From: Longimicrobiales bacterium
GTDB lineage: Bacteria > Gemmatimonadota > Gemmatimonadetes > Longimicrobiales > Gaopeijiaceae
Direction: 5' to 3'
NCBI GenBank assembly: GCA_028278645.1
Contig: JANQDZ010000045.1
Location: forward strand, 1-64,000
DNA length: 64,000 nucleotides
A program made the translations under genes and the position numbers. Under the pieces are notes generated by a model, which was not told where the DNA came from, did no database searches, and worked only from the letters and a program-made list of their open reading frames with translations. Shown here piece by piece: positions 52,109-64,000 of the stretch. Within the stretch, counting starts at the first letter, position 1, and each line of letters begins with the position of its first letter.

Positions 52109-54310
52109 ATGAACGACCACACGAAAGCTGAGGCAGAACGTTCCACCGCGGTCGAGGGCACGCCTAAGGACCAGCCGACCTCGGTCGCTCAACCAAGCGC
52201 TTCAGGGCCTGCCGAAAGTCCGGGAGAGAACCCGGACAGATTCCTCAACCGAGAAATCACCTGGCTGGCCTTCAACGGTAGGGTCCTCCAGGAGGCTATG
52301 GACCCTCGGGTCCCTCTTTTTGAGCGTCTCAAGTTCTTGGCGATCTTCTCCTCCAACCTGGATGAGTTTTTTCGTGTCAGGGTGGCTTCCCTCCGAAGCC
52401 TTCTGCGGTTGAAGAAGAAGAAGCTGAGGAAGTTGGATTTCCGCCCTCGACGCCTCCTTAGAGACATTCACTTCGTGGTCACGAGCCAGCAGGAGATGTT
52501 CGGTAGTACACTCAGAAGTCAGATCCTCCCCGAACTCGAGGCCAACGGCATCTTCCTTCTCAACCATCGAAACCTCACCCGGTTACAGACGGCGTTCCTC
52601 GAATCTTTCTTTACGGAAAAGGTTCGGCCACTGATGGACCCCCTGCTCCTGACCGAGACAGAAGGGCCCACGTTTTTGGACGACGGCCGGATCTATCTGG
52701 TTACCGAGCTGTGGCCCAAGGTTGACATCTCTCTCGGGTCGGAACGACCCACCTACGGGATCATCGGAGTCCCGACCCCACCGTTACCCAGGTTCGTGGT
52801 CGTCCCAGGGGAAGGCCACAACGTTCTCTTCATCGAGGACGTGATCCGACAATTCCTCCCGACCCTTTTTCCGGATCACGAGGTGGGATCCGCTTATGGG
52901 GTCAAACTCTCTCGCGATGCGGATCTCTACCTGGAGGACGAGTTCGAGGGTGATCTGGTAGGGAAGATCCGAAAGAGTCTCGGGAAGAGAGATCTGGGTA
53001 CGCCAAGCCGGTTCCTGTACGACCTCCAGGCTCCGTATGCGTTGGTCTCGTTTTTAAAAGACCACCTGGCGCTGGAGGACGATGACCTCGTTCCCGGGGG
53101 CCGGTACCACAATCTCCAGGATTTTTTCCAGTTTCCCCGTCCGAAGAATGGACAGGGCCTGACCCGCCCACCCCTGGAGCCTTTGCCCCACGCCGACCTG
53201 AGAAACGTCCCGTCTCTCCTCGATGCCACCAGGGAACGAGATAGGATCCTTCATTTCCCTTACCAGTCCTTCTCCTACGTGACACGGTTCTTCCAAGAAG
53301 CAGCCAGGGACCCAAGAACCCGAAAGATCTGGATCACTCTTTATCGTGTGGCCGAAGACTCGGCCGTTGTGGAAGCCCTCATCGAAGCTGCCAGGGCCGG
53401 AAAAGAAGTTTCTTGTTTCGTCGAGGTTAAGGCTCGCTTCGATGAAGCGAGGAACCTGAAATGGGCCGGGGAGATGGAGGAAGCGGGTGTACGGGTTTTC
53501 TACAGCAAACCGGGCATAAAAGTCCACTCAAAAATTGCCCTGGTGACCCGGGAGGAGGAAGATGGAATCCGGGACTACGGGTTTTTGGGAACCGGCAACT
53601 TCAACGAGTCCACTGCCCGGATCTATGCCGACCACGCCCTACTCACGGCTGATTCCCGGCTCACCAAAGACCTGGATCAAGTTTTCAGGTTCCTTTGGGA
53701 GGATATCCCGGAGCCCCACTGCGACCACCTTCTAGTAGCTCCCGCGAAACTCCGGGAGGGGTTGGAGAGAGCCATAAAAGGGGAGATCGCCGCGGCCCTC
53801 TCGGGGGGGATCGCCGGGATGGCGCTCAAGATGAACAGCCTGGAAGACCCCCGGATGATTGATCTCCTCTATGAGGCGAGTCAAAAAGGGGTCCGTGTGA
53901 ATTTGATCATCCGTGGGATCTGTTGCATGCGGCCGGGCCTGGAAGACCTCGGCGAGAACGTAAAAGCCAGGAGCATCGTGGATCGATTCCTGGAGCATGC
54001 TCGGATCTACAGGTTCGTCGACGGAGGGTCCCCGGTGATGTACCTCTCGTCCGCCGACCTCATGAAAAGGAATCTCAATCGGAGGGTGGAGGTTGCTTTT
54101 CCCATCCTCGACGAAAAGGTCCGAGAAGAGATGGAGCAGTTCCTCCACCTCCAGCTCTCAGACAATGCCAAGGCCCGAGTCCTGGATCCAGAGCAAACGA
54201 ACACCTACGTGAGTCGGCGGGTCGGAGAACCCAGGGTCGAGGCTCAGGAAGGGTTCTATCGGTGGCTGGAAGAGCAGCTTGTCGACTCCGGTCCCGGGGG
54301 CGGGAGTTGA
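52109..54310 (+). CDS. ppk1: Polyphosphate kinase 1
   Basis: Ppk1 builds polyphosphate from ATP. The 733-residue protein has an N-terminal low-complexity tail of about 45 residues and then the PPK core, beginning NREITWLAFNGRVLQEA, NPNLDEFFRVRV-type SSNLDEFFRVRVASL, and the phospholipase-D-like catalytic histidines in KPGIKVHSKIALVTR and ARIYADHALLT. Length is normal apart from the tail. No PPX or pho gene is adjacent. The trmH ATG lies 4 bases after its stop. Confidence 0.96.
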   Translation: MNDHTKAEAERSTAVEGTPKDQPTSVAQPSASGPAESPGENPDRFLNREITWLAFNGRVLQEAMDPRVPLFERLKFLAIFSSNLDEFFRVRVASLRSLLRLKKKKLRKLDFRPRRLLRDIHFVVTSQQEMFGSTLRSQILPELEANGIFLLNHRNLTRLQTAFLESFFTEKVRPLMDPLLLTETEGPTFLDDGRIYLVTELWPKVDISLGSERPTYGIIGVPTPPLPRFVVVPGEGHNVLFIEDVIRQFLPTLFPDHEVGSAYGVKLSRDADLYLEDEFEGDLVGKIRKSLGKRDLGTPSRFLYDLQAPYALVSFLKDHLALEDDDLVPGGRYHNLQDFFQFPRPKNGQGLTRPPLEPLPHADLRNVPSLLDATRERDRILHFPYQSFSYVTRFFQEAARDPRTRKIWITLYRVAEDSAVVEALIEAARAGKEVSCFVEVKARFDEARNLKWAGEMEEAGVRVFYSKPGIKVHSKIALVTREEEDGIRDYGFLGTGNFNESTARIYADHALLTADSRLTKDLDQVFRFLWEDIPEPHCDHLLVAPAKLREGLERAIKGEIAAALSGGIAGMALKMNSLEDPRMIDLLYEASQKGVRVNLIIRGICCMRPGLEDLGENVKARSIVDRFLEHARIYRFVDGGSPVMYLSSADLMKRNLNRRVEVAFPILDEKVREEMEQFLHLQLSDNAKARVLDPEQTNTYVSRRVGEPRVEAQEGFYRWLEEQLVDSGPGGGS

Positions 54311-54314
54311 GCCG

Positions 54315-54962
54315 ATGAACCCGGAGCGATTCCGACGGATCCGTGAGACCCTGGCCAGACGGCAACCGGACCTCACCGTCCTCATGGAGAGGGTGAACAA
54401 AACCCACAACTTTTCGGCGATCTTGAGGAGTTGTGACGCTGTGGGCGTTCTGGACGCACATGTGGTTCTCCCGGAGAAAGGGATCGACCTCCATCACCAC
54501 ACGTCTGCGGGTACGACCCGGTGGATGGGGATCCAGGTTCATGAGTCCGTTGATGTCGCTGTCCAGGCCCTGAACCGGGAGGGTTTTAAGATACTCGCCG
54601 CCCATCCAGGAGAGGGCGCAAAAGACTACCGGGATCTCGACCTGACCAGGCCCACGGCATTCATGGTAGGAGCCGAGTTGTTGGGTTTGTCCGAGGAAGG
54701 GATGTCCCTGGCCGACGAGACCGTGGTGATTCCCATGGCGGGCATGGCCAAGTCCCTGAATGTCTCCGTGGCCACCGCCCTGCTCCTCTTCGAAGCCTTC
54801 AGGCAGCGGCAGTTGAAGGGGATGTACTCCCAGACACGACTCTCCAAGGACGAGTTCGAACGCCTCCTGTTCGAATGGGCCTACCCGGAGGTGGCGCGGA
54901 TCTATCGAGACCAGGGCCAGCTATACCCGGACCTCTCCGCCGAAGGCGAGATCCTGTCGTAA
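54315..54962 (+). CDS. trmH: tRNA (guanosine-18-2'-O)-methyltransferase TrmH
   Basis: TrmH methylates G18 in the D loop of tRNA. The 215-residue SPOUT protein has RVNKTHNFSAILRSCDAVGV near residue 27, the TAFMVGAELLGLSEEGM segment and the knot IPMAGMAKSLNVSVATALLLFE. The start at 54315, just after the ppk1 stop, gives the family's normal N-terminus. Its partial overlap with the ppk1 end in another frame is a shadow. Confidence 0.93.
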   Translation: MNPERFRRIRETLARRQPDLTVLMERVNKTHNFSAILRSCDAVGVLDAHVVLPEKGIDLHHHTSAGTTRWMGIQVHESVDVAVQALNREGFKILAAHPGEGAKDYRDLDLTRPTAFMVGAELLGLSEEGMSLADETVVIPMAGMAKSLNVSVATALLLFEAFRQRQLKGMYSQTRLSKDEFERLLFEWAYPEVARIYRDQGQLYPDLSAEGEILS

Positions 54963-55186: not shown

Positions 55187-56584
55187 CTAGTCTCGGGGAT
55201 CCGAGGGTCTTTCCATTCGCCCCAGCTGGAACCGGAGGGAATCCTCGAGGTCAGAGAAGAGAAACTCGTATCCGGTGTCCAAGGCCTTTTGAGGGATGAC
55301 CCGAGCTCCTTTCAGGAGGAGTTCACTCCCCATCTCTCCGAGCAGGCCTTTAACCGCCACAGCCGGCAGCGGGACGACGGTGGGCCTGTTCAGCACCCTG
55401 CCGAGGGCATCCGTGAACCTGGAGTTCGGGACAGGATTGGGTGCGGTGGCGTTGAGGGGGCCGGACACTCCGGGGCGGGTCAAAGCATGGTGGATCAACC
55501 CGACCTGATCATCTAGGTCGATCCAGCTCATGTACTGGCGGCCGGCTCCAATGCGACCGCCGAGGCCTGCTTTGAATGGTGGAAGCATCTTTCCGAGGCC
55601 GGGGCCCAAGGGGCTGACTACAAACCCCGTCCTGAGCTTCACGACCCTTATCCCAGCTTTCCGGGCCGGGCCGGTCGCTCCCTCCCATTCCCTGCAGACC
55701 ATGGCAAGATAGCCCTGCCCCGCGGAGCTCTCCTCCGTCACGATTTCATTTCCTCGGGACCCGTAGTATCCAACGGCCGAGGCCGAGATCAGGAGCTTGG
55801 GTCCTCTCGGAATTTTTGAAAGGGCCCGGGAGATCAGCTCGGTCCCCTGTCGTCGACTCTGGAGGATCCTCTTCTTCTTCTCCTCGCTCCAGCGCAGGGC
55901 AGCCAAAGACTCGCCGGCCAGGTGGACCACGGCGTCGGCACCCTCGAACGGGCTCGGATCGATTGTATCAGCCAGAGGGTCCCAAGCCGGCCCCCCCGTT
56001 GAATCGCCAGCACCTCGGCGGGATAGCGTTCTTACCTCGTGGCCCCCGGAAGTCAGGAAATCTTTCAGAGCCGTCCCGATCAAACCCGAGGCGCCGGTGA
56101 TGACCACGCACAGGGGAGGGCCCTCATAGCGCCCATGAAGTGTGAGATCGTTTCCCAGCCGTGAGTGCCGGAACTGGAAAAGGCGCTCCAGTTCCCGGTC
56201 GATGAACCCTTCTGCGAAGAGGCGGCCGGCGGCACCCAGGGGCGCGGCCCATTCAACCTCGTCCTCCACAAGGCACCCACCGTCGTCTGCGGGGAGGAAG
56301 CGATGTGTATGTGACCATTTTTCAAAAGGGCCGGACTCCTGCTCATCCCTGAATAAACGATTCTCCTCGAAGGCCGTGTGGCGGACTTCCCACTTCATAT
56401 CGGTGGGTCCTTGGCGAATACCCAGCACGACCCGGCCTCCCTCGTGGATCCCCCCTTCCTTCTCCAAGACCCTGACATTGGCCCAAGGGGGCACAAGCCG
56501 TTGGAATGCTCCGGGGCGGAGGTGCCACGCGAACACCTCCTCCGGGGGGAACGGATAGTGCGACCGTTTGCGATAATAGGGCAT
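55187..56584 (-). CDS. TIGR01777-family epimerase with N-terminal SRPBCC domain
   Basis: The first about 150 residues form an SRPBCC (START-like) domain with PFPPEEVFAWHLRPGAFQRLVPPW, fused to an extended short-chain reductase domain with the NAD(P) loop VVITGASGLIGTALKDFL, HLAGESLAALRWSEEKKKRI and SASAVGYYGSRG. This is the SulA/YfcH-type TIGR01777 family, whose substrates are unknown. ATG 56584 is preferred over TTG 56593 because the family starts near MPYYRKRSHY. Confidence 0.92.
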   Translation of the reverse strand: MPYYRKRSHYPFPPEEVFAWHLRPGAFQRLVPPWANVRVLEKEGGIHEGGRVVLGIRQGPTDMKWEVRHTAFEENRLFRDEQESGPFEKWSHTHRFLPADDGGCLVEDEVEWAAPLGAAGRLFAEGFIDRELERLFQFRHSRLGNDLTLHGRYEGPPLCVVITGASGLIGTALKDFLTSGGHEVRTLSRRGAGDSTGGPAWDPLADTIDPSPFEGADAVVHLAGESLAALRWSEEKKKRILQSRRQGTELISRALSKIPRGPKLLISASAVGYYGSRGNEIVTEESSAGQGYLAMVCREWEGATGPARKAGIRVVKLRTGFVVSPLGPGLGKMLPPFKAGLGGRIGAGRQYMSWIDLDDQVGLIHHALTRPGVSGPLNATAPNPVPNSRFTDALGRVLNRPTVVPLPAVAVKGLLGEMGSELLLKGARVIPQKALDTGYEFLFSDLEDSLRFQLGRMERPSDPRD

Positions 56585-56659
56585 CTGAATCAATCCAATC
56601 CGTCCGCGGTGCGGGGCATCAACCAGTCCTTACCCACCAGACTTTCCCTCGTTTCCAAC

Positions 56660-57355
56660 CTATCCGATCAGCCACCACGCCGCTAAGGACGGAATCACCT
56701 GGACCCAGAAGTTGTCGGTCCTCGGACCGCTTAGCCCTTCGGCCAAGGAGCCCACCCCGCCGCAGGCCAATGCGACGACGAGAAGCTCGGGCAGGGTAGA
56801 GCCGAGGAGCGAGAGGGCGACCGCAGCCGCCAGGGCTCCGAAGAGAAACACCCCAATGGATCCTTCCAGGGACCGAGGACCGGCCTCTGGGTCCGAGAAG
56901 GGTGACCTGTACCTGTGTTTGCCCCACTTTCGCCCCACCAGTTCACCAGCCGCATCTCCAAAGCCACAGACGAGATAACCCACGATGGCGAACTCCCCCA
57001 ATAACAGGATTGAGGAGAGGCCGCCGAAGCCCGTGGAAAGGAACGGAATCAGGATGGATCCGGCGGGTCCTGGAAGCTCCTTGTCGGCCCTGGTGAGTCC
57101 CCGCCAAAAGGGCAAGCTCGGCCGGAGCTGATAGGAGGAGAAAAGAAGTAGGGAGATCCCGGTCCCGTACGTGACAACGCCCCAAAAGCCTAAGAGAAGC
57201 TGTGCCGGCACGGCTCCGGCAAAAACCGCTGCATGGAAGACCTTCCGCGGGATCGGTGGGCTGACATCACCTGATGTCACAAGGCCGCCGACCACCGTGG
57301 CCATGGTGATTCCGAATCCGAGGCTAGCCACTCCCAGGATCAGGAAGGGAATCAT
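56660..57355 (-). CDS. Polytopic membrane protein, dolichol/diacylglycerol-kinase-like (phosphatidate cytidylyltransferase family)
   Basis: The 231-residue protein has about seven hydrophobic segments, a RKVFHAAVFAG motif near residue 36 and a GFGDAAGELVGRKWGKHRYRSPF motif near residue 130. That arrangement is typical of the SEC59/DGK1 polyprenol-kinase family, which uses CTP to phosphorylate a membrane alcohol. The ATG at 57355 is used because it overlaps the glycosyltransferase stop as ATGA; the open frame upstream overlaps that gene. It ends the signalling operon and may supply or recycle a lipid carrier. Confidence 0.8.
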   Translation of the reverse strand: MIPFLILGVASLGFGITMATVVGGLVTSGDVSPPIPRKVFHAAVFAGAVPAQLLLGFWGVVTYGTGISLLLFSSYQLRPSLPFWRGLTRADKELPGPAGSILIPFLSTGFGGLSSILLLGEFAIVGYLVCGFGDAAGELVGRKWGKHRYRSPFSDPEAGPRSLEGSIGVFLFGALAAAVALSLLGSTLPELLVVALACGGVGSLAEGLSGPRTDNFWVQVIPSLAAWWLIG

Positions 57356-58767
57356 GCCGTCTCCGAGCCGAACCCGCTCCGTGTCATCACGCCCCAGCCG
57401 CCCCGGCCGATCATGGCAGAGATGGTTCCCCGTACCCGCCAGAAAGTGTTCAGCTGTCGGTACCCTAGGTTCTCCAGAACCGCGATCCAGAACAGGGTGA
57501 GGAGGTCCTTTCTCTCCGGGTAGCGGCGGAATGTGATCTCTTCCAGGCAAACGGCCGCGATTGAAAGCACCATCCCGAATGCGAAGGCAACAATGAGGAA
57601 TGCCAGTACATAGGCCAACGACGCTCTACCTGCTAAGACCGTGAGGATGAATGAGGCATAACCCAGGACCTCAATGAGGGGCCCGATCATCTCCAGAAAG
57701 AAAAAATAAGGGTAGGCGACCAACCCCAACCGACCATACTTCGGGTTGAAGAGCATCACACGGTGTTTGGCCAGGGACTCCAAGAGACCCCTCTGCCACC
57801 GATCCCGTTGACGCCCCAGGACGTCGAGGGTCACGGGGCACTCGGTCCACGCCACCGGATCCGGGATGAACCCGATCCGGTAGGGGGTCCGTTTTTCCCG
57901 GCAATGACGGTGGAGCCTCACGATGAGCTCCATGTCTTCCCCAACAGTCTCTGTGGAGAAGCCTCCGACCTCCACCACCAGGGAGCGATCGAACACTCCG
58001 AACGCGCCGGAGACGATCAACGTTGATCTCAGCGCATCCCAGCCCATCCGCACCGCAAGGAAGGCCCGGAGGTACTCCATCACCTGAAAGCGGGCCAAGA
58101 GGTTCCTGGGGAGGCCTACCCTCTCCACCTGCCCCTTGTTGATCGTGCAGCCGTTGGCGATCCGGATGATCCCACCGGCTGCTACCGTTCGCGAGTCTTC
58201 CAGGAAGGGGCGAACGATCCGCAGGAGAGAATCCCGTTCGAGGATCGTGTCGGCATCCATCGCACAGAAGAGCGCGGAACGGCAGTAGTTGATCCCGGCG
58301 TTTAAGGCGTCCGCCTTCCCGCCGTTCTTTTTATCCAGGACCCAGAGGTTCGGGTACCGGCGACTCCGGAAGGTCCGATGCACGTTCGCGGTAGGAATCT
58401 CTCCCATGGGGACCCGGTCCACAGGCTCCAAGTTGAACGCCTTCGTCAGTACCTCTAAAGTCCCGTCCGTCGAGCCATCGTTGCTGACAAGGACTTCGAA
58501 CTCCGGGTAGTTCAGGGAGAGGAGAGAACGAACCGACTCGACGATGGTCGATTCCTCGTTGAAGGCGGGACTGATGAGGGTGATCGGGGGAGCCCCACCC
58601 GTCCTCAGGAACCTCTCGAGGTCTACCGTCTTCAGGCGCAGGGCGTACCGACGGAGAGCCCCGTAGGCGAAAAGGCTCGTGGAGAGATAGAATCCGTTGA
58701 GGACGAGGAAGTAGAGAATCACCAATCCGTTGAAGGAGAGAACCAAACCCCAGAACAGATCGATCAC
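57352..58767 (-). CDS. Processive GT2 glycosyltransferase (PgaC/cellulose-synthase-like)
   Basis: The 471-residue protein starts with membrane segments, then has a GT2 catalytic core: NDGSTDGTLEVL, FCAMDADTILERDSLL, GVFDRSLVVEVGGF and the processive motif RQRDRWQRGLLE (Q-x-x-R-W), and then more membrane helices near the C-terminus. It could make a beta-linked surface polysaccharide from UDP-sugars. Start is GTG, overlapping the HEAT gene stop by 4 bases. Confidence 0.9.
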   Translation of the reverse strand: MIDLFWGLVLSFNGLVILYFLVLNGFYLSTSLFAYGALRRYALRLKTVDLERFLRTGGAPPITLISPAFNEESTIVESVRSLLSLNYPEFEVLVSNDGSTDGTLEVLTKAFNLEPVDRVPMGEIPTANVHRTFRSRRYPNLWVLDKKNGGKADALNAGINYCRSALFCAMDADTILERDSLLRIVRPFLEDSRTVAAGGIIRIANGCTINKGQVERVGLPRNLLARFQVMEYLRAFLAVRMGWDALRSTLIVSGAFGVFDRSLVVEVGGFSTETVGEDMELIVRLHRHCREKRTPYRIGFIPDPVAWTECPVTLDVLGRQRDRWQRGLLESLAKHRVMLFNPKYGRLGLVAYPYFFFLEMIGPLIEVLGYASFILTVLAGRASLAYVLAFLIVAFAFGMVLSIAAVCLEEITFRRYPERKDLLTLFWIAVLENLGYRQLNTFWRVRGTISAMIGRGGWGVMTRSGFGSETA

Positions 58768-59840
58768 TTTCCGGCTTCCTCGGCCAGGACCTGACGGAAC
58801 AGCGGCCGGGCTGGATCCTCGTCCCGGCTCAGGGCCCCCAGGGCCTTCTTCCCCCCGATCCGATACACCCCTCTGGCGGCGGCCATTCGGACCCAGGCCG
58901 ACGGGTCTCCGAGTTTTTCTACCAAGAGGGGGAGATGGTCCTCGTTCCCAAGCTCCGACAGGGTCCTGGTGGCTGCGGCCCTGAGGAAGAACTCCTCAGA
59001 GTCGAGGTGACCCCTGGCCGCATGGGCGTGGGCCCCGGTCCCAACCTGTGCCAGGAGGCGCATGAGGGAAGTGAGGAGTGTGGGGTCGTCCTCTTTTTCG
59101 GCCAGCTCCCCGGCCAGATCGGCCGAGGCAAGGTCACCTAACACTGAGAGTGAGTCAGCCGCCACGGCCCGGATCTGGACGGGGCACGCAGGATCCGAGA
59201 GGGTATCCCGGATTGCCGGGACCGCGCCGGGTCCCATCTCGACGACCATATCCACCAAGTACCAGGATCGGAATGTCTTGAACCGGGTCAACTTGCGGCA
59301 AAAGCCCTGCGCGATCTCGGGAGTCGCTTGCCGGGCCATGAGTCTGGCAGCCAGGGCGGCGACGAACGGCGAGGGATCATCCACTGCTGCGTTGACTTCG
59401 GGTAGGTAATCAGGCAAGCCCAAGGTTCCCAAGGTCTGAACCGCCCTCGCCCGAATGCCTACGCGTCGGTGGCCGAGGAGGGGCAGGACCTTCTGCAGGT
59501 ACGGGGCGGCAGCCTGTTTGAGGACATCCCGTTCCGCTCCCCCCAGGCGCTGGGCGTAGCGGAGGGCAAATTCGAGGAAGTGGAGTTGGTCTTTGTCCTC
59601 TACTTGATCCCAAAGGTCGGACAGCCTTCGAGAATCGGATAGGGCCTCGAGAAGAATGGGTTCCCACGTCCCTTTTAGCTTTGCCCAGAGCCGGTCCTCT
59701 CTTTCGTTCCGCAATCTCAACAGGAATACAACGACCGCGAACACAACGGCCAGCGTCAGGAGTATGAGGATTAATCCGGTGAGGATCAGGAAAATCTGGT
59801 CCGTGAGAACGGTATCGATCGCGGTACCGGGGCGGTCCAT
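58764..59840 (-). CDS. Membrane-anchored HEAT-repeat protein
   Basis: An N-terminal transmembrane helix (FLILTGLILILLTLAVVFAVVVFLL, about residues 17-42) is followed by about 300 residues of paired helices in HEAT-like repeats (for example GIRARAVQTLGTLGLPDYL and ALAARLMARQATPEI). Such scaffolds often bind partners or regulate glycosyltransferases. ATG 59840 is used rather than TTG 59843. Its function here is inferred from position only. Confidence 0.85.
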   Translation of the reverse strand: MDRPGTAIDTVLTDQIFLILTGLILILLTLAVVFAVVVFLLRLRNEREDRLWAKLKGTWEPILLEALSDSRRLSDLWDQVEDKDQLHFLEFALRYAQRLGGAERDVLKQAAAPYLQKVLPLLGHRRVGIRARAVQTLGTLGLPDYLPEVNAAVDDPSPFVAALAARLMARQATPEIAQGFCRKLTRFKTFRSWYLVDMVVEMGPGAVPAIRDTLSDPACPVQIRAVAADSLSVLGDLASADLAGELAEKEDDPTLLTSLMRLLAQVGTGAHAHAARGHLDSEEFFLRAAATRTLSELGNEDHLPLLVEKLGDPSAWVRMAAARGVYRIGGKKALGALSRDEDPARPLFRQVLAEEAGK

Positions 59841-59844
59841 CAAG

Positions 59845-61371
59845 TCACCGGTTCAGAAGGCGTCGTACGCGGGCAAGGACCTCCACTGGAGAGAATGGCT
59901 TCACCATGTAGTCATCCGCCCCCAAATCGAAACCCCTCGCGATATCCTCTTCTCTTCCCATGGACGTGAGCATCATGATGGGAAGCTCGTAGTAGGCAGG
60001 CACCTTCCGGAGCCTCTCCAGGAGCTCGAACCCATCCATTCCCGGCATCTTTACGTCCAGAACGGCCATGGAGATCTGGTTGGCAAGGGCACCCTCCAGA
60101 GCTTCCGATCCGTCCGGGAAATGCAAGACGTTGAACCCTTCTTTCTCGAGCCGATGAATAAGGATCCCAGCGGAAAGAGGGTCGTCCTCCGCAACCAGGA
60201 TCGTGGCTACTTCCTCCGGCCCAGCCACTTCGGCCAGGGTGTTTCCTCCCGCCTCGAAGGCTTCCTCCAGGAGTGCGTAAGCGTCCTCCACGGCATCATC
60301 GAACGTTGCACCCGAGATGATCTCCACAACCCCGCCGGACGCTGTGACCCGGAAGGTCTCACCCCTCCGGTCCCGATGAGTGATCTCGCGAATCCTTTCC
60401 AGTAGCTTCTGCAGCAGGCCGGTCGTGGTGTCGCGATCCAACCCAGGGCAAAGCAGAAGGAATTCGGACTCCTCCCACCGCGCGGCCACCGAACCTTTTG
60501 GAACCGTATCGCGGAGCAAGGTGCCAACTGACGCGAGAACGCCGTCCGCGATTTCGTGATCGAAACGCTCCTCGAGGGCTCGGAACCCGTCGAGGCCGAT
60601 GATCCCCACTGAGCTCGGAGCCGGGAAGGTCCATCGCTCCCAAAGATCCCGGATCACGTTCCTCTTCAGCAGGTGGGTCAGCGGGTCGGTGGTTTCGTTC
60701 AAGCGACGTTTCGCCACGCCGTGAAGGCTGGAGCTTGCTGCAGTTGCTATGGCAGTAGGATCGACCGGCTTCTCGAAAAAAGACCGAGCCCCGAGAGCGA
60801 GGCATTCCGCTTTTATCTCCGGAGTGCCCCGCCCGCTTACTACGAGGAGTGGGAGGTGTTTATAGCGGTCCTGGTCTCTCACCTGAGCCAAGAGAGTGCG
60901 CCCGTCCCCATCTGGGAGATAGAGGTCGGTCAAAAGGAGGGCTACGTCCTCCCTCCGTAGAATCTCCTCTGCCTCGGCTATAGTGGACGCTGTATGGATG
61001 GTCCGATCGGGAGCGTCGAGCCCTAATTCCAGCAGGGCGGCATCGTCAGGGTTTTCTTCCACAGCGAGGACGACGAAGTGCTGGGAGGGTTCGGGCCCCA
61101 GAGAGGCTAGGACCTCCTTCAGCTGGGTCTGCAGAACCGATCCGACCTCCAACAACTCATTCTCACCTGCACCGACCAGGTCGAATGCGGCCTTCTCCAC
61201 CTCCTCCAACCCCTCGCCGATGGCCCAGTTCAGGAACACCTTCCCCATCCGGCGGATGGTCCCGGCGCCTTCCTGTTCTCCCTTCTCCAACCGCATGAGG
61301 CCGGCGGTCAAAACGGCCAACCGGGGCCGCAGCAACTCCGGAGCCCGGAGCCTTCCGCCAGGGCTAGTCAA
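59845..61371 (-). CDS. Two-receiver response regulator with degenerate GGDEF domain
   Basis: The order is an N-terminal helical region (1-110), a receiver domain (about 115-235, with LLTDLYLPDGDG and FEKP), a GGDEF-like domain (about 245-385), and a second receiver (about 390-508, with VLDVKMPGMDGFELL, MLTSMG and YMVKPFSP). The GGDEF signature is replaced by ARWEESEFLLL, so diguanylate cyclase activity is very unlikely; it may bind GTP or c-di-GMP or serve as a dimer core. It overlaps the histidine-kinase gene by 8 bases. Confidence 0.88.
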   Translation of the reverse strand: MTSPGGRLRAPELLRPRLAVLTAGLMRLEKGEQEGAGTIRRMGKVFLNWAIGEGLEEVEKAAFDLVGAGENELLEVGSVLQTQLKEVLASLGPEPSQHFVVLAVEENPDDAALLELGLDAPDRTIHTASTIAEAEEILRREDVALLLTDLYLPDGDGRTLLAQVRDQDRYKHLPLLVVSGRGTPEIKAECLALGARSFFEKPVDPTAIATAASSSLHGVAKRRLNETTDPLTHLLKRNVIRDLWERWTFPAPSSVGIIGLDGFRALEERFDHEIADGVLASVGTLLRDTVPKGSVAARWEESEFLLLCPGLDRDTTTGLLQKLLERIREITHRDRRGETFRVTASGGVVEIISGATFDDAVEDAYALLEEAFEAGGNTLAEVAGPEEVATILVAEDDPLSAGILIHRLEKEGFNVLHFPDGSEALEGALANQISMAVLDVKMPGMDGFELLERLRKVPAYYELPIMMLTSMGREEDIARGFDLGADDYMVKPFSPVEVLARVRRLLNR

Positions 61372-64000
61372 CGGTTCCCCCGTCAGGGTTTACGTCGTCT
61401 TCTTGCTCGAGTGGGAAGAATTCAGCCAAGGCCGAAGCCAGGTCCGCTTCGAATTCGTCTCCCTTTTCCAGGACTCTGCTTGCCTGGGCCAGGAGTCGCT
61501 TCCTCTCGGTCAGTGACAGTTCCTTCCCCGTGCAGATGATGACAGGAAGCTCAGATCGCCGTGGATCCTCCCGGAGTCGCTTCAAAAAGGCGGTGCCGTC
61601 CATTACCGGCATCACCAAGTCCAGCAGGATCAGATCGGGGTCCAGTGTTTTGAGGGCTTCTTCGGCCTCCTCCCCATTCCCCGCCAGTGTGACGCGGATC
61701 CCCAGCTCTTCCAAAGAAATCCGAAAAAGCTCCTGAGTCCCTGGCTCGTCCTCGACGACCAACACCCTCCGGCCTCGGGGTTCCCTCAGGTTCCTTCTCA
61801 GGACCGTCAGAAGGTCACCCTTGTGAACCGGTTTCGTGAGGAGGTCCACCGATCCAAACAGGCTTCCACGATCCTGTTCCTCGGCCACCACCGAGATAAT
61901 GACCACGGGGATTTCCTGGAGGCTCGGGGACTCCTTGAATTCCCGTAAAGCTTCCCATCCTGTCATGTCCGGCATGATCAGGTCCAAAGTGATCAGGTCC
62001 GGGCGTTGTTTCTTCGCGACCTCCAGCCCCACCTCGGCGGAAGGCGCAGTGAGGACCTCGAAGCTCAGGTCCTCCAACTGGGCCCGGAGGAGACGCAGGG
62101 AATCGGGATCGTCATCGATCGCGAGGATCCTGGCCCGGTGCCCCCCCAAATGAGAAGCGATCTCGGTCGTGGAAGCAGGACGGGTGGACTCGATCGGGGC
62201 CAGAGCCTCCTGCATCAACTCCTCCTCCGCCCGTCTTTCAGGGGAAGCCCCCTCAGTCAGAAGGATCGTGAAGGTTGACCCTTCCCCAACCTCACTCTCC
62301 ACCCGAAGGTCGAAACCCATGAGCTGGCATAGCGACCGCGAGATCGTGAGGCCCAGCCCGGTACCGCCGAATTCCCGATTTGTTTCTTTGTCTGCCTGTT
62401 GAAAGGCTTCGAAGATTGCCTGGAGTCGGTCGGGGGGAATCCCGATGCCGGTGTCCCGCACGGCAATGGCGGAAGGCGTTCGACCGTCGTCTTGAACTTC
62501 GACCTCGACCGCCACTTCTCCCTGGGTGGTGAACTTCAGGGCGTTACCAACCAGGTTTATGATGACCTGCCGGAGCTTCCCTGAATCGGTCTGGATGACC
62601 TCCATGCCGTCGGGAATGACACTCCTGAGGACAACGTTCTTTTCTTTCACCTGCCCTTCAAGTTGTGAAAGCGTATCGCCTACGAGCGCTCCCAGATCGA
62701 CGGTCTGCAGGTCCAACTCCATACGCCCGGCTTCGATCTTCGCGAGGTCCAGGACCTCGTTGATGAGGTCCAGGAGGTGCTTCCCGTTTGCGATGATCCT
62801 CTCCAGGAAACTGAGCTCCTGCTCCTCCAGGTTCCCTGTCCGGTTCTTCAGGAGGATGTTTGTGAAGCCGATCACGGAGTTCAGTGGGGTCCGGAGCTCG
62901 TGACTCATGCTTGCAAGGAACTGACTCTTGGCTTGGTTCGCGGTTTCCGCTTCCTCCTTCGCCATACGGAGGGCCAGCTGAGTTCGACGCCGGGCGGTGA
63001 CGTCCTTCTCGAAAACCGCAACCCCGGTGATCCCCGCGGCCTCCCGAATCGGGTTAAAGAAGAACTCATAGGTTCTGATTTGGCCGCCAATCTCCTCCTC
63101 TCGGAGCTCGCTGAAGGCGTTCCCGTACAGGGCCTTCTCGTACATATCCACGTACCAGGCTACGTCCTCGGGCGGGAGGCAGTCCGACGGCCGGTCGCCG
63201 ACTTTTGGCTCCCTGTCGGTTCTCACCTCCAAGGCCATGGAAAAGGCTGTGTTGAAGGTGATCAGCCGCTTGGCACGATCCACGGACCAGATGGCATCCC
63301 CGGTGTTCTCGACGAGGGCCCGAAGGTTCGCCTGAAATGCTTCGAATTTCCTCCTGGCCTGCGTCTGCTCGGTGATGTCCCTGAAGATTCCTCGAGTTGC
63401 GACGGCCTCACCATCTTTTTCCCAGACGGTGGCGCTCCCGGCTACCTGAATGACCTGACCGTCGGCGGCCACGAGGTCCACCTCCAGGACCGGGAGATCT
63501 TCCCCTTGAAGAACGCGGGCAAAATCCCGTTTGCACCTCTCGCGGCACCCTGCGTCGAGAATCTGGAAGAGGGTCAGGGTTTCAATGTCCTCGTCGCTAT
63601 ATCCGAGGGCGTTCTTCCACGCCTGGTTGACGTAGATGAACCGGCCTTCTGGGTCCACACTCTGGATCAGGTCGTGGGCGTTGTCCAGAAAGTCTTGGAG
63701 GCGCTCTTCCTTCTCCTGAATCAGGCGCTCGGCCTGTCGGCGGTAGTCGATCTCCCGGGCAAGAGCTTGGTTGGCCTCCCGAGTGGCATCGGCCACCTCC
63801 CCTTCCCTCCTGAACGTCACGTAAACGCTGGCGAGCAACCCCACGAGTGCACAGGCGTAGCTCAAGACTTTCAGGGCGTGGGCGGAGACGAAAAGGGCAT
63901 CATGGTACTGGGAGGAAAACGGCATGTACCCTGCGTGGGCCATGACACCGATGAGGAGGGCGACGATGAGCCAATGCTCGAAGGCATCCACCCGCCAATG
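61364..64000 (-). CDS. Hybrid sensor histidine kinase, N-terminus outside the window
   Basis: The frame is open to the right edge, so the gene starts beyond 64000; at least 878 residues are visible. The order is two or more membrane segments, a coiled linker, PAS 1 (DNAHDLIQSVDPEGRFIYVN), PAS 2 (ENTGDAIWSVDRAKRLITFN), HisKA (MSHELRTPLNSVIGF), HATPase (NLVGNALKFT, GTGLGLTISRSL), and two receivers (ILAIDDDPDSLRLLR with LIMPDMTGWEA, VLVVEDEPGTQELF with LVMPVMDGTAF). It can phosphorylate itself, its receivers and probably the next gene's two receivers. It is coupled to 59845-61371. Confidence 0.92.
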   Translation of the reverse strand, partial: HWRVDAFEHWLIVALLIGVMAHAGYMPFSSQYHDALFVSAHALKVLSYACALVGLLASVYVTFRREGEVADATREANQALAREIDYRRQAERLIQEKEERLQDFLDNAHDLIQSVDPEGRFIYVNQAWKNALGYSDEDIETLTLFQILDAGCRERCKRDFARVLQGEDLPVLEVDLVAADGQVIQVAGSATVWEKDGEAVATRGIFRDITEQTQARRKFEAFQANLRALVENTGDAIWSVDRAKRLITFNTAFSMALEVRTDREPKVGDRPSDCLPPEDVAWYVDMYEKALYGNAFSELREEEIGGQIRTYEFFFNPIREAAGITGVAVFEKDVTARRRTQLALRMAKEEAETANQAKSQFLASMSHELRTPLNSVIGFTNILLKNRTGNLEEQELSFLERIIANGKHLLDLINEVLDLAKIEAGRMELDLQTVDLGALVGDTLSQLEGQVKEKNVVLRSVIPDGMEVIQTDSGKLRQVIINLVGNALKFTTQGEVAVEVEVQDDGRTPSAIAVRDTGIGIPPDRLQAIFEAFQQADKETNREFGGTGLGLTISRSLCQLMGFDLRVESEVGEGSTFTILLTEGASPERRAEEELMQEALAPIESTRPASTTEIASHLGGHRARILAIDDDPDSLRLLRAQLEDLSFEVLTAPSAEVGLEVAKKQRPDLITLDLIMPDMTGWEALREFKESPSLQEIPVVIISVVAEEQDRGSLFGSVDLLTKPVHKGDLLTVLRRNLREPRGRRVLVVEDEPGTQELFRISLEELGIRVTLAGNGEEAEEALKTLDPDLILLDLVMPVMDGTAFLKRLREDPRRSELPVIICTGKELSLTERKRLLAQASRVLEKGDEFEADLASALAEFFPLEQEDDVNPDGGTVD

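Follow-up and report, generated by a model that had tools for sequence, protein, structure and literature searches.

The gene row described here may represent an arrangement in which the synthesis of a surface sugar is switched by direct contact between proteins, not by gene control or c-di-GMP. Specifically, we give an even chance to the reading that a phosphorelay ends on the C-terminal receiver (REC2) of a response regulator, and that this receiver gates a polysaccharide synthase, composed of a HEAT protein and a GT2 glycosyltransferase (GT), by protein contact, without c-di-GMP or DNA binding.

The gene row and its predicted membrane synthase

When considering the possibility of such a switch, the layout of the genes comes first. 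Five minus-strand genes, which a preliminary description had placed at 56660-64000 of the window (the whole stretch of 64,000 nucleotides that was analysed), are present there (Table 1) and are joined as tightly as had been claimed: the distances, computed from the first possible start codon, are -8 between the hybrid kinase (HK) and regulator genes, +1 between the regulator and HEAT genes, and -4 both between the HEAT and GT genes and between the GT gene and the fifth gene. The domain content read earlier for the kinase, namely, two PAS domains, HisKA, HATPase and two receivers, is borne out by Pfam. The kinase is truncated by the window end; with the start codon chosen, its gene reaches about contig position 64606, and its N-terminus beyond the window is a MASE3 membrane sensor domain (Pfam). 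Farther upstream, the row continues with genes for a lone receiver and an HPt protein; the two genes past HPt, which show -4 overlaps, are, judging by eye, presumably rpe and rpi.

Table 1. Features of the gene row, with window positions unless the contig is named
Feature	Position	Strand or placement	Basis
Hybrid histidine kinase, 3' part (PAS-PAS-HisKA-HATPase-REC-REC)	61364..64000	-	Pfam; upstream extension from contig
Regulator: Hpt-like N-terminus, REC1, degenerate GGDEF, REC2	59845..61371	-	Pfam REC x2 + GGDEF
Degenerate GGDEF domain, A-site RWEESEF, without RxxD I-site	60241..60690	-	Sequence
C-terminal receiver REC2, proposed output surface	59857..60204	-	Conservation
HEAT protein: one TM helix, then HEAT solenoid	58764..59843	-	Pfam, AlphaFold2, hydrophobicity
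Membrane GT2 glycosyltransferase, BcsA/HAS/PgaC-like, QRDRW	57352..58767	-	Pfam, alignment, AlphaFold2
Small hydrophobic (membrane) protein, fifth gene	56660..57355	-	ATG 57355, 4-base overlap with GT
Lone REC	contig 64669-65043	about 60 bases before HK	Contig sequence
HPt	contig 65040-65414	upstream of lone REC; -4 overlap	Contig sequence

In relatives, the order of the five genes, the conservation of which had been put forward as a check, is not kept as a unit; what persists is the HEAT-GT pair, to which the fifth gene does not belong. Of 113 distinct loci, counting that of the window, 95 have the HEAT gene immediately before GT2, 34 of them with an overlap of exactly 4 bases, counted from the first possible start; the two genes also stand this way in 68 of the 78 loci found by the GT. 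A HEAT profile was also applied to the phylum of Pedobacter, where 20 of 62 HEAT places were fetched: the GT is next in 19 of the 20, and a receiver or GGDEF gene is directly upstream of HEAT in 17. This check is only partly independent, the HEAT proteins behind the profile having themselves been GT-linked. Sampling of genomes gave a GT match at E<=1e-95 in 99 of the 395 taken from the window's phylum, and a match to the HEAT profile in 57 of the 296 taken from that of Pedobacter. What recurs is HEAT-GT2, in many cases with a receiver gene before it.

The membrane HEAT protein is as previously described, with a Pfam HEAT_2 match of 66.8 bits and a single hydrophobic segment (aa 8-47); its AlphaFold2 model has a pLDDT of 95.3, and the solenoid probably faces the cytoplasm. 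The 50 matches listed by a fold search are all proteins built of repeats, among them alphaRep and importins (Z up to 19.6), which is uninformative on function. The next protein is GT2 by Pfam and carries the expected QxxRW motif as QRDRW; across an alignment of 66 sequences, Q320, R321 and R323 are invariant and W324 is kept in at least 90% (the GT alignment omits L035, L068 and L086, and the HEAT alignment L050, L054, L085 and L086, each along with ten loci that have no HEAT-GT pair). Its AlphaFold2 model (pLDDT 90.4) aligns with hyaluronan synthase over 392 residues (Z 28.9, rmsd 3.3) and with BcsA over 377-388 residues (Z 23.9-25.7). This modelled membrane GT-A fold, together with QxxRW, is that of the processive GT2 synthases (BcsA/HAS clan), and polymer synthesis is predicted.

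YaiO-type outer-membrane barrels or sulfatase-fold proteins, the latter presumably resembling BcsG in some relatives, adjoin several GT copies: ten downstream genes that were scanned comprise two YaiO, three sulfatases, one penicillin amidase, one DnaB_2 and three without a family. At the window row, a Pfam scan of the five next genes yielded no YaiO or sulfatase, which leaves export without an explanation there. The top structural match of the GT, the archaeal membrane mannosyltransferase PcManGT (Z 32.4, 337 residues), would fit a lipid-linked sugar transferase of the glycolipid or dolichol-phosphate type, to which the small membrane protein would contribute lipid kinase activity. We regard this as highly improbable, given the invariant residues of QRDRW, the longer alignments to hyaluronan synthase and BcsA, the barrels and sulfatase-fold neighbours, and the absence of joint conservation of the small protein and the GT.

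Indeed, the fifth gene does not accompany the rest of the row in relatives: it has no match in the congener genomes G001 and G002 (90% and 67% complete), and at L010 (contig G002:C260 of a congener, by coordinates) another gene follows 13 bases after the GT. The label "polyprenol-kinase-like", which we take to derive from the motif GDA..E..G...G...EGS, was not upheld: neither Pfam at E<=10 nor NCBIfam at 0.01 gives a match for the protein. A PDB profile search gave one irrelevant match, and 11 homologues gave one weak match to an unrelated family and otherwise none at 0.1. A CTP-dependent polyprenol, phytol or dolichol kinase was considered and rejected, PF01148 finding no support in 19 relatives and matching only another gene in the protein's own genome; remote kinship to CTP-dependent lipid kinases may nevertheless exist.

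The receiver in front of the HEAT protein

The preliminary description of a double-receiver regulator without a DNA-binding domain holds as to the two receivers and the absence of a DNA-binding Pfam domain; it overlooked a GGDEF domain between the receivers (54.5 bits against a Pfam cut-off of 23.8), so that the architecture is REC-GGDEF-REC, preceded by an Hpt-like N-terminus without the phospho-His motif. The acceptor Asp and the Lys are readable in both receivers, and the only other Pfam domain is the dead GGDEF. On this domain content the regulator is a response regulator with receiver output, the phosphorylation of which is predicted.

Within the regulator, conservation is highest in REC2, which is 98% identical to its counterpart in the congener G001, as compared to 79% for REC1 and 84% for GGDEF. 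REC2 is under strong constraint, with a dN/dS of 0.013 in the same comparison (dS is near saturation), and its identity exceeds that of REC1 in 383 of 406 pairs drawn from 29 proteins. Such conservation need not mean HEAT binding, because receivers of the PhoB/OmpR type are constrained by their own dimer face, and the best NCBIfam matches of REC2 include PhoB/OmpR-type regulators.

Across loci, the regulators range from a lone REC through REC-REC up to Hpt-REC-GGDEF-REC, and every listed architecture ends in a receiver (followed by a long tail at L146). A Pfam scan at 1e-4 of the 50 multi-domain regulators, with short lone receivers left out, detected no DNA-binding family in 46, an N-terminal ArsR- or MarR-type HTH in 4 (L025, L028, L062, L145) and an HD domain in 1. 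In Pedobacter's phylum, HEAT often has a bare receiver of about 120 aa as its immediate upstream neighbour, and all phosphorylation residues examined are retained in 14 of the 15 short receivers that occur among the 20 HEAT loci. Thus, the earlier suggestion of output by protein contact, not transcription, gains indirect support from the 46 regulators and the bare receivers. Single receivers beside HEAT/GT are also nearer to the terminal-receiver model than others (median T-N 13.7 versus -6.0, n=30 and 103, p 0.0013); the support from this kinship is weak because T-O is positive in only 40% of the 30 versus 14% of the 103. The lone receivers of Neomarinimicrobiota do not resemble the terminal-receiver type.

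The signalling genes could instead act elsewhere, on transcription via a partner or as a phosphate sink, with HEAT no more than a scaffold that serves the GT in assembly or in the envelope, and with co-expression accounting for the neighbourhood. Consistent with this rather unlikely possibility, no receiver was detected immediately before HEAT in 37 of the 97 rows that contain it (at L044, one of these, a LacI-type gene precedes HEAT), and four regulators carry an HTH; the receiver is one gene further away in L039, L056, L058 and L061. Furthermore, by eye we take the N-terminal parts of the HEAT proteins at L055, L049 and L056 to be LysM-like or SPOR-like. No receiver-HEAT fusion was found among 2853 ORFs of L009-L087 or in the 20 HEAT loci, including the ten longest HEAT frames; long HEAT frames bear other N- or C-terminal parts. 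However, a receiver before HEAT recurs in several phyla, in the same position despite very varied regulators, and the predominance of regulators without a DNA-binding domain likewise speaks against action elsewhere.

Decay of the GGDEF domain and the possible role of c-di-GMP

The GGDEF domain brings c-di-GMP into consideration. The diguanylate cyclase signature GG[DE]EF is replaced by RWEESEF in the window, RWEESDF in L010 and RWEEAEF in the congener G001; the RxxD I-site upstream of it is absent from the window regulator, which has VPKGS there, and from L010. More generally, of 38 GGDEF domains that lie no more than 2.3 kb upstream of a GT (42 before removal of 4 duplicates), 9 have a canonical A-site, versus 39 of 47 control GGDEFs (Fisher p 5e-8), the controls having been hand-picked down a score-ordered list of the matches listed, 4 of them from the window's own genome, so that they lean to well-scoring domains and therefore favour canonical sites. 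The count near the GT takes in some loci without a called HEAT and domains found by the custom profile alone (at 1e-4, Pfam does not call that of L017 a GGDEF); the gapped domain of L048 was scored as dead, and in L024, L031 and L034 the canonical GGDEF is encoded by a separate gene preceding a short receiver.

A degenerate GGDEF might still serve as a c-di-GMP receptor gating the synthase, as in PelD, BcsE and PssE, with the receivers merely tuning it. Polysaccharide operons are well known to encode such degenerate GGDEF receptors (PMC8461298, PMC4125290). Along the same lines, the RxxD I-site is retained in 13 of the 29 A-site-dead GGDEFs near the GT and in the sole GGDEF of each of G457, G562 and G410, which is A-site-dead and adjoins HEAT (in G410, HEAT has no adjoining GT, L242); the window's genome has other GGDEF domains, canonical in 3 of 4 fetched. 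Against these points stand the lack of the I-site in the window copy and L010, the short-receiver loci, where the regulator has no GGDEF, and the genomes of the phylum of Pedobacter: of the 21 that carry HEAT and were checked, 15 yield no GGDEF match (E<=0.001), and in these a short receiver gene lies directly before HEAT in 14 and one gene further in 1. Among the remainder, G572 and G638 show several GGDEF matches and G547 one. On balance, a c-di-GMP receptor is unlikely. With both GGDEF sites lost, c-di-GMP is disfavoured for the window copy, and it appears not to be a general requirement of the HEAT-GT2 module.

Proposed switch and comparison with known systems

The REC2-contact reading can be envisaged as follows. 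The membrane-bound hybrid kinase, together with the HPt and lone receiver encoded upstream, would hand phosphate to the regulator, the output of which would be carried by REC2 and involve neither c-di-GMP nor DNA binding. Phosphorylated REC2 would dock on the HEAT solenoid, which would be anchored next to the GT2 in the inner membrane, and this docking would switch the enzyme, which is expected to make a sugar polymer and push it out; in the window lineage the GGDEF would be a kept, non-catalytic linker. We count against this reading the 37 rows without a directly upstream receiver, the four HTH regulators and the one with an HD domain, the PhoB/OmpR-type matches of REC2, the absence of a fusion, the nine canonical A-sites, the I-sites of the dead GGDEFs, the GGDEF matches in G572, G638 and G547, the receivers of Neomarinimicrobiota and the lack of a YaiO or sulfatase gene among those scanned next to the window row.

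A broader proposition, which we advance only tentatively and consider somewhat improbable, is that receiver-HEAT-GT2 forms a separate, widespread class of synthases in which a phosphorylated receiver on HEAT replaces c-di-GMP as the on/off signal; the GGDEF regulators could then record a passage from diguanylate cyclase to c-di-GMP receptor, inert linker and, finally, bare receiver, or one in the opposite direction. Should the contact prove real, synthase-type polysaccharide machines could be driven by phosphorelays without an intermediary, and a large group of surface polymers that appear uncharacterised would come within reach of simple genetic tests. No HEAT-GT2 synthase is described in the titles and abstract openings of the open-licence papers that the searches listed.

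The closest parallel in logic appears to be EpsW of Myxococcus xanthus, a single-domain response regulator that is reported to activate EpsZ and exopolysaccharide synthesis by contact when phosphorylated (PMC12802240). In both cases a phosphorylated receiver without an output domain steers polysaccharide synthesis post-translationally, here by proposal only; EpsZ, however, is a monotopic phosphoglycosyl transferase that starts a Wzx/Wzy pathway, whereas the putative target here is a synthase-type HEAT-GT2. According to the same source, post-translational control of synthase-type pathways frequently involves c-di-GMP (PMC12802240), and the PNAG synthase PgaCD is, by another, bound and activated by it (PMC8461298). 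PgaCD, too, pairs a GT2 with a small membrane partner, and PgaC_IcaA (NCBIfam TIGR03937) is the nearest NCBIfam model of the GT; yet that partner is PgaD, not HEAT, and the 127.7 bits of the match are far below the cut-off of 422.3. The fold is shared with BcsA (Z up to 25.7), and the cellulose and Pel systems have degenerate GGDEF proteins, BcsE and PelD (PMC8461298); unlike BcsA-BcsB and Pel, the window row has no PilZ by Pfam, and its GGDEF has no I-site and is flanked by receivers. In Listeria, PssA-E likewise encodes a degenerate GGDEF protein with a GT2, but PssE retains the I-site and binds c-di-GMP, and the accessible part of that source mentions no receiver or HEAT protein with PssA-E (PMC4125290). 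Finally, the regulator resembles PleD-type REC-GGDEF proteins in combining receivers with GGDEF (154.2 bits with the PleD model) and differs from them in scoring below the cut-off of 474, in its REC-GGDEF-REC order and in its dead catalytic site.

Gene row and its conserved core

In the source assembly, a 4.9 Mb draft of 103 contigs in which the window is contig C101, 1-64000, five coupled genes follow one another from the kinase to the small membrane protein with junctions of -8, +1, -4 and -4 bases. Farther upstream, outside the window, lie genes for a lone receiver and for an HPt protein (both by Pfam); a 4-base overlap links the HPt gene to an rpe-like gene, and the latter likewise to an rpi-like one, so that genes resembling those of sugar-phosphate enzymes (rpe and rpi by eye) stand at the head of the signalling row. 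Homologues of rpe, HPt, REC, HK, RR and HEAT are also grouped in the congener G001 (stretch L225).

Genes of the row and its upstream extension
Feature	Position	Strand	Place
Hybrid kinase gene (HK)	61364 to about contig 64606	minus	first in reading order; runs past window end
Regulator gene	59845-61371	minus	second
HEAT protein gene	58764-59843	minus	third
GT2 glycosyltransferase gene (GT)	57352-58767	minus	fourth
Small membrane protein gene	56660-57355	minus	fifth
HPt/rpe-like/rpi-like stretch	contig C101 65040-66085 and beyond (= L009 11041-13036)		outside window

A GT-based scan of species genomes yielded 78 loci from many phyla, the closest named relative being L010, from a Gemmatimonadota bacterium (82% GT identity); the window is accordingly assigned to this phylum. 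The HEAT gene lies immediately upstream of the GT gene in 68 of them, and the pair is found in 95 of 113 distinct loci, window included, when 40 stretches chosen from matches in genomes of the window's phylum are added. In Pedobacter's phylum, 57 of 296 genomes match a HEAT profile, a check that is only partly independent because the profile was made from GT-linked HEAT proteins. Among 20 of the 62 listed HEAT places there, ten of them picked for long frames, the GT gene directly follows HEAT in 19, and a receiver or GGDEF gene immediately precedes it in 17.

Of the five-gene operon proposed in the preliminary description, the HEAT-GT pair is conserved and the fifth gene falls outside the conserved unit, both in L010 and in other relatives. 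In L010, a homologue of the window's 55187-56593 takes the fifth gene's place, 13 bases past GT. The fifth gene is matched in 20 of 59 relatives (own genome counted), and in 11 short loci among these matches no GT was detected next to it. The 55187-56593 gene encodes a two-part protein (polyketide-cyclase-like, then SDR with DUF1731), with homologues within the fetched GT stretches of L010, L147, L131, L130 and L132; its product is perhaps a loosely linked partner. On the plus strand, 52109-54962 holds first a polyphosphate kinase 1 gene and then an overlapping SpoU-type RNA methylase gene.

The regulator and its input

The two receivers described earlier are present, with a previously overlooked GGDEF domain between them (Pfam, 54.5 bits). 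Its active site reads RWEESEF, and the sites of two congeners are likewise dead (RWEESDF in L010, RWEEAEF in G001). L010 is equated here with the congener genome G002, since their contig coordinates agree. The I-site is lost as well; as judged from its sequence, this domain is unable to bind c-di-GMP by that site. The regulator's N-terminus aligns with the Hpt domain of relatives, which Pfam recognizes in 17 of 50 regulators; the N-terminus itself has no phospho-His motif. A canonical active site occurs in 9 of 38 distinct GGDEF domains near GT, as against 39 of 47 controls from own and related genomes, a sample leaning to well-scoring domains (Fisher p 5e-8). RxxD is kept in 13 of the 29 GGDEFs near GT with dead active sites, and these 13 could bind c-di-GMP.

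The last receiver, REC2, is the most constrained part of the regulator: compared with G001, identity is 98% for REC2, 79% for REC1 and 84% for GGDEF, with dN/dS of 0.013, 0.057 and 0.054, respectively (dS near saturation). REC2 also shows the higher identity of the two receivers in 383 of 406 pairs among 29 REC-GGDEF-REC proteins and in 50 of 55 pairs among 11 REC-REC proteins, and all examined phosphorylation residues are intact in 14 of 15 short receivers from the 20 HEAT loci of Pedobacter's phylum. This conservation and the kept residues fit REC2 as the output surface. Dimer formation also constrains PhoB-type receivers; hence, the constraint does not prove this role.

The regulators before HEAT are very diverse, comprising lone receivers, receiver pairs, REC-GGDEF-REC and Hpt-REC-GGDEF-REC proteins; no receiver was detected immediately upstream in 37 of 97 HEAT rows, one sometimes lying a gene farther. 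An N-terminal HTH, ArsR- or MarR-type and ahead of REC-GGDEF-REC, is found in 4 of 50 multi-domain regulators (L025, L028, L062, L145), some of which may additionally bind DNA. As to c-di-GMP, no GGDEF match was found in 15 of 21 HEAT-bearing genomes from Pedobacter's phylum (completeness not stated; GT adjoins HEAT in 20), and 14 of these 15 carry a short receiver gene directly before HEAT. In three more (G457, G562, G410), the single GGDEF is a dead copy adjoining HEAT. G572, G547 and G638 hold one or more GGDEFs each, the first two being the genomes that lack a receiver before HEAT. The module therefore seems not to depend on c-di-GMP in general.

Effector and proposed mode of action

The predicted HEAT structure has high confidence (pLDDT 95.3), with residues 7 to 69 forming a helix that runs into the solenoid and is hydrophobic at residues 8-47. 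In Bacteroidota relatives (L049, L055, L056, L230-L234), HEAT proteins have long extra parts: some are extended tails at the C-terminus, and others precede the membrane helix at the N-terminus and, by eye, resemble LysM or SPOR. The GT model (pLDDT 90.4) matches the folds of PcManGT (Z 32.4, 337 aligned), hyaluronan synthase (Z 28.9, 392 aligned) and BcsA (Z 25.7, 377 aligned). Some relatives have YaiO outer-membrane barrels (L012, L055, L039, L053, L056) or sulfatase-fold proteins (L024, L043, L071) next to the GT row; the remaining neighbours scanned were unrelated or matched no family. The barrels and sulfatase-fold proteins suggest that the polymer in relatives is secreted and perhaps modified. 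Neither gene type is among the window's own next genes scanned by Pfam. In L068 (9950-13543), one 1197-aa open frame joins a GT2 and a sulfatase-fold (LtaS/MdoB-like) part, a fusion recognized by eye.

Taken together, the row most likely encodes a phosphorelay-gated HEAT-GT2 polysaccharide synthase: the phosphorelay would act on the synthase through protein contact, GT activity would be switched, and a polysaccharide would be the product. EpsW-EpsZ, which belongs to a different pathway, provides a published precedent for such a mode of action (PMC12802240).
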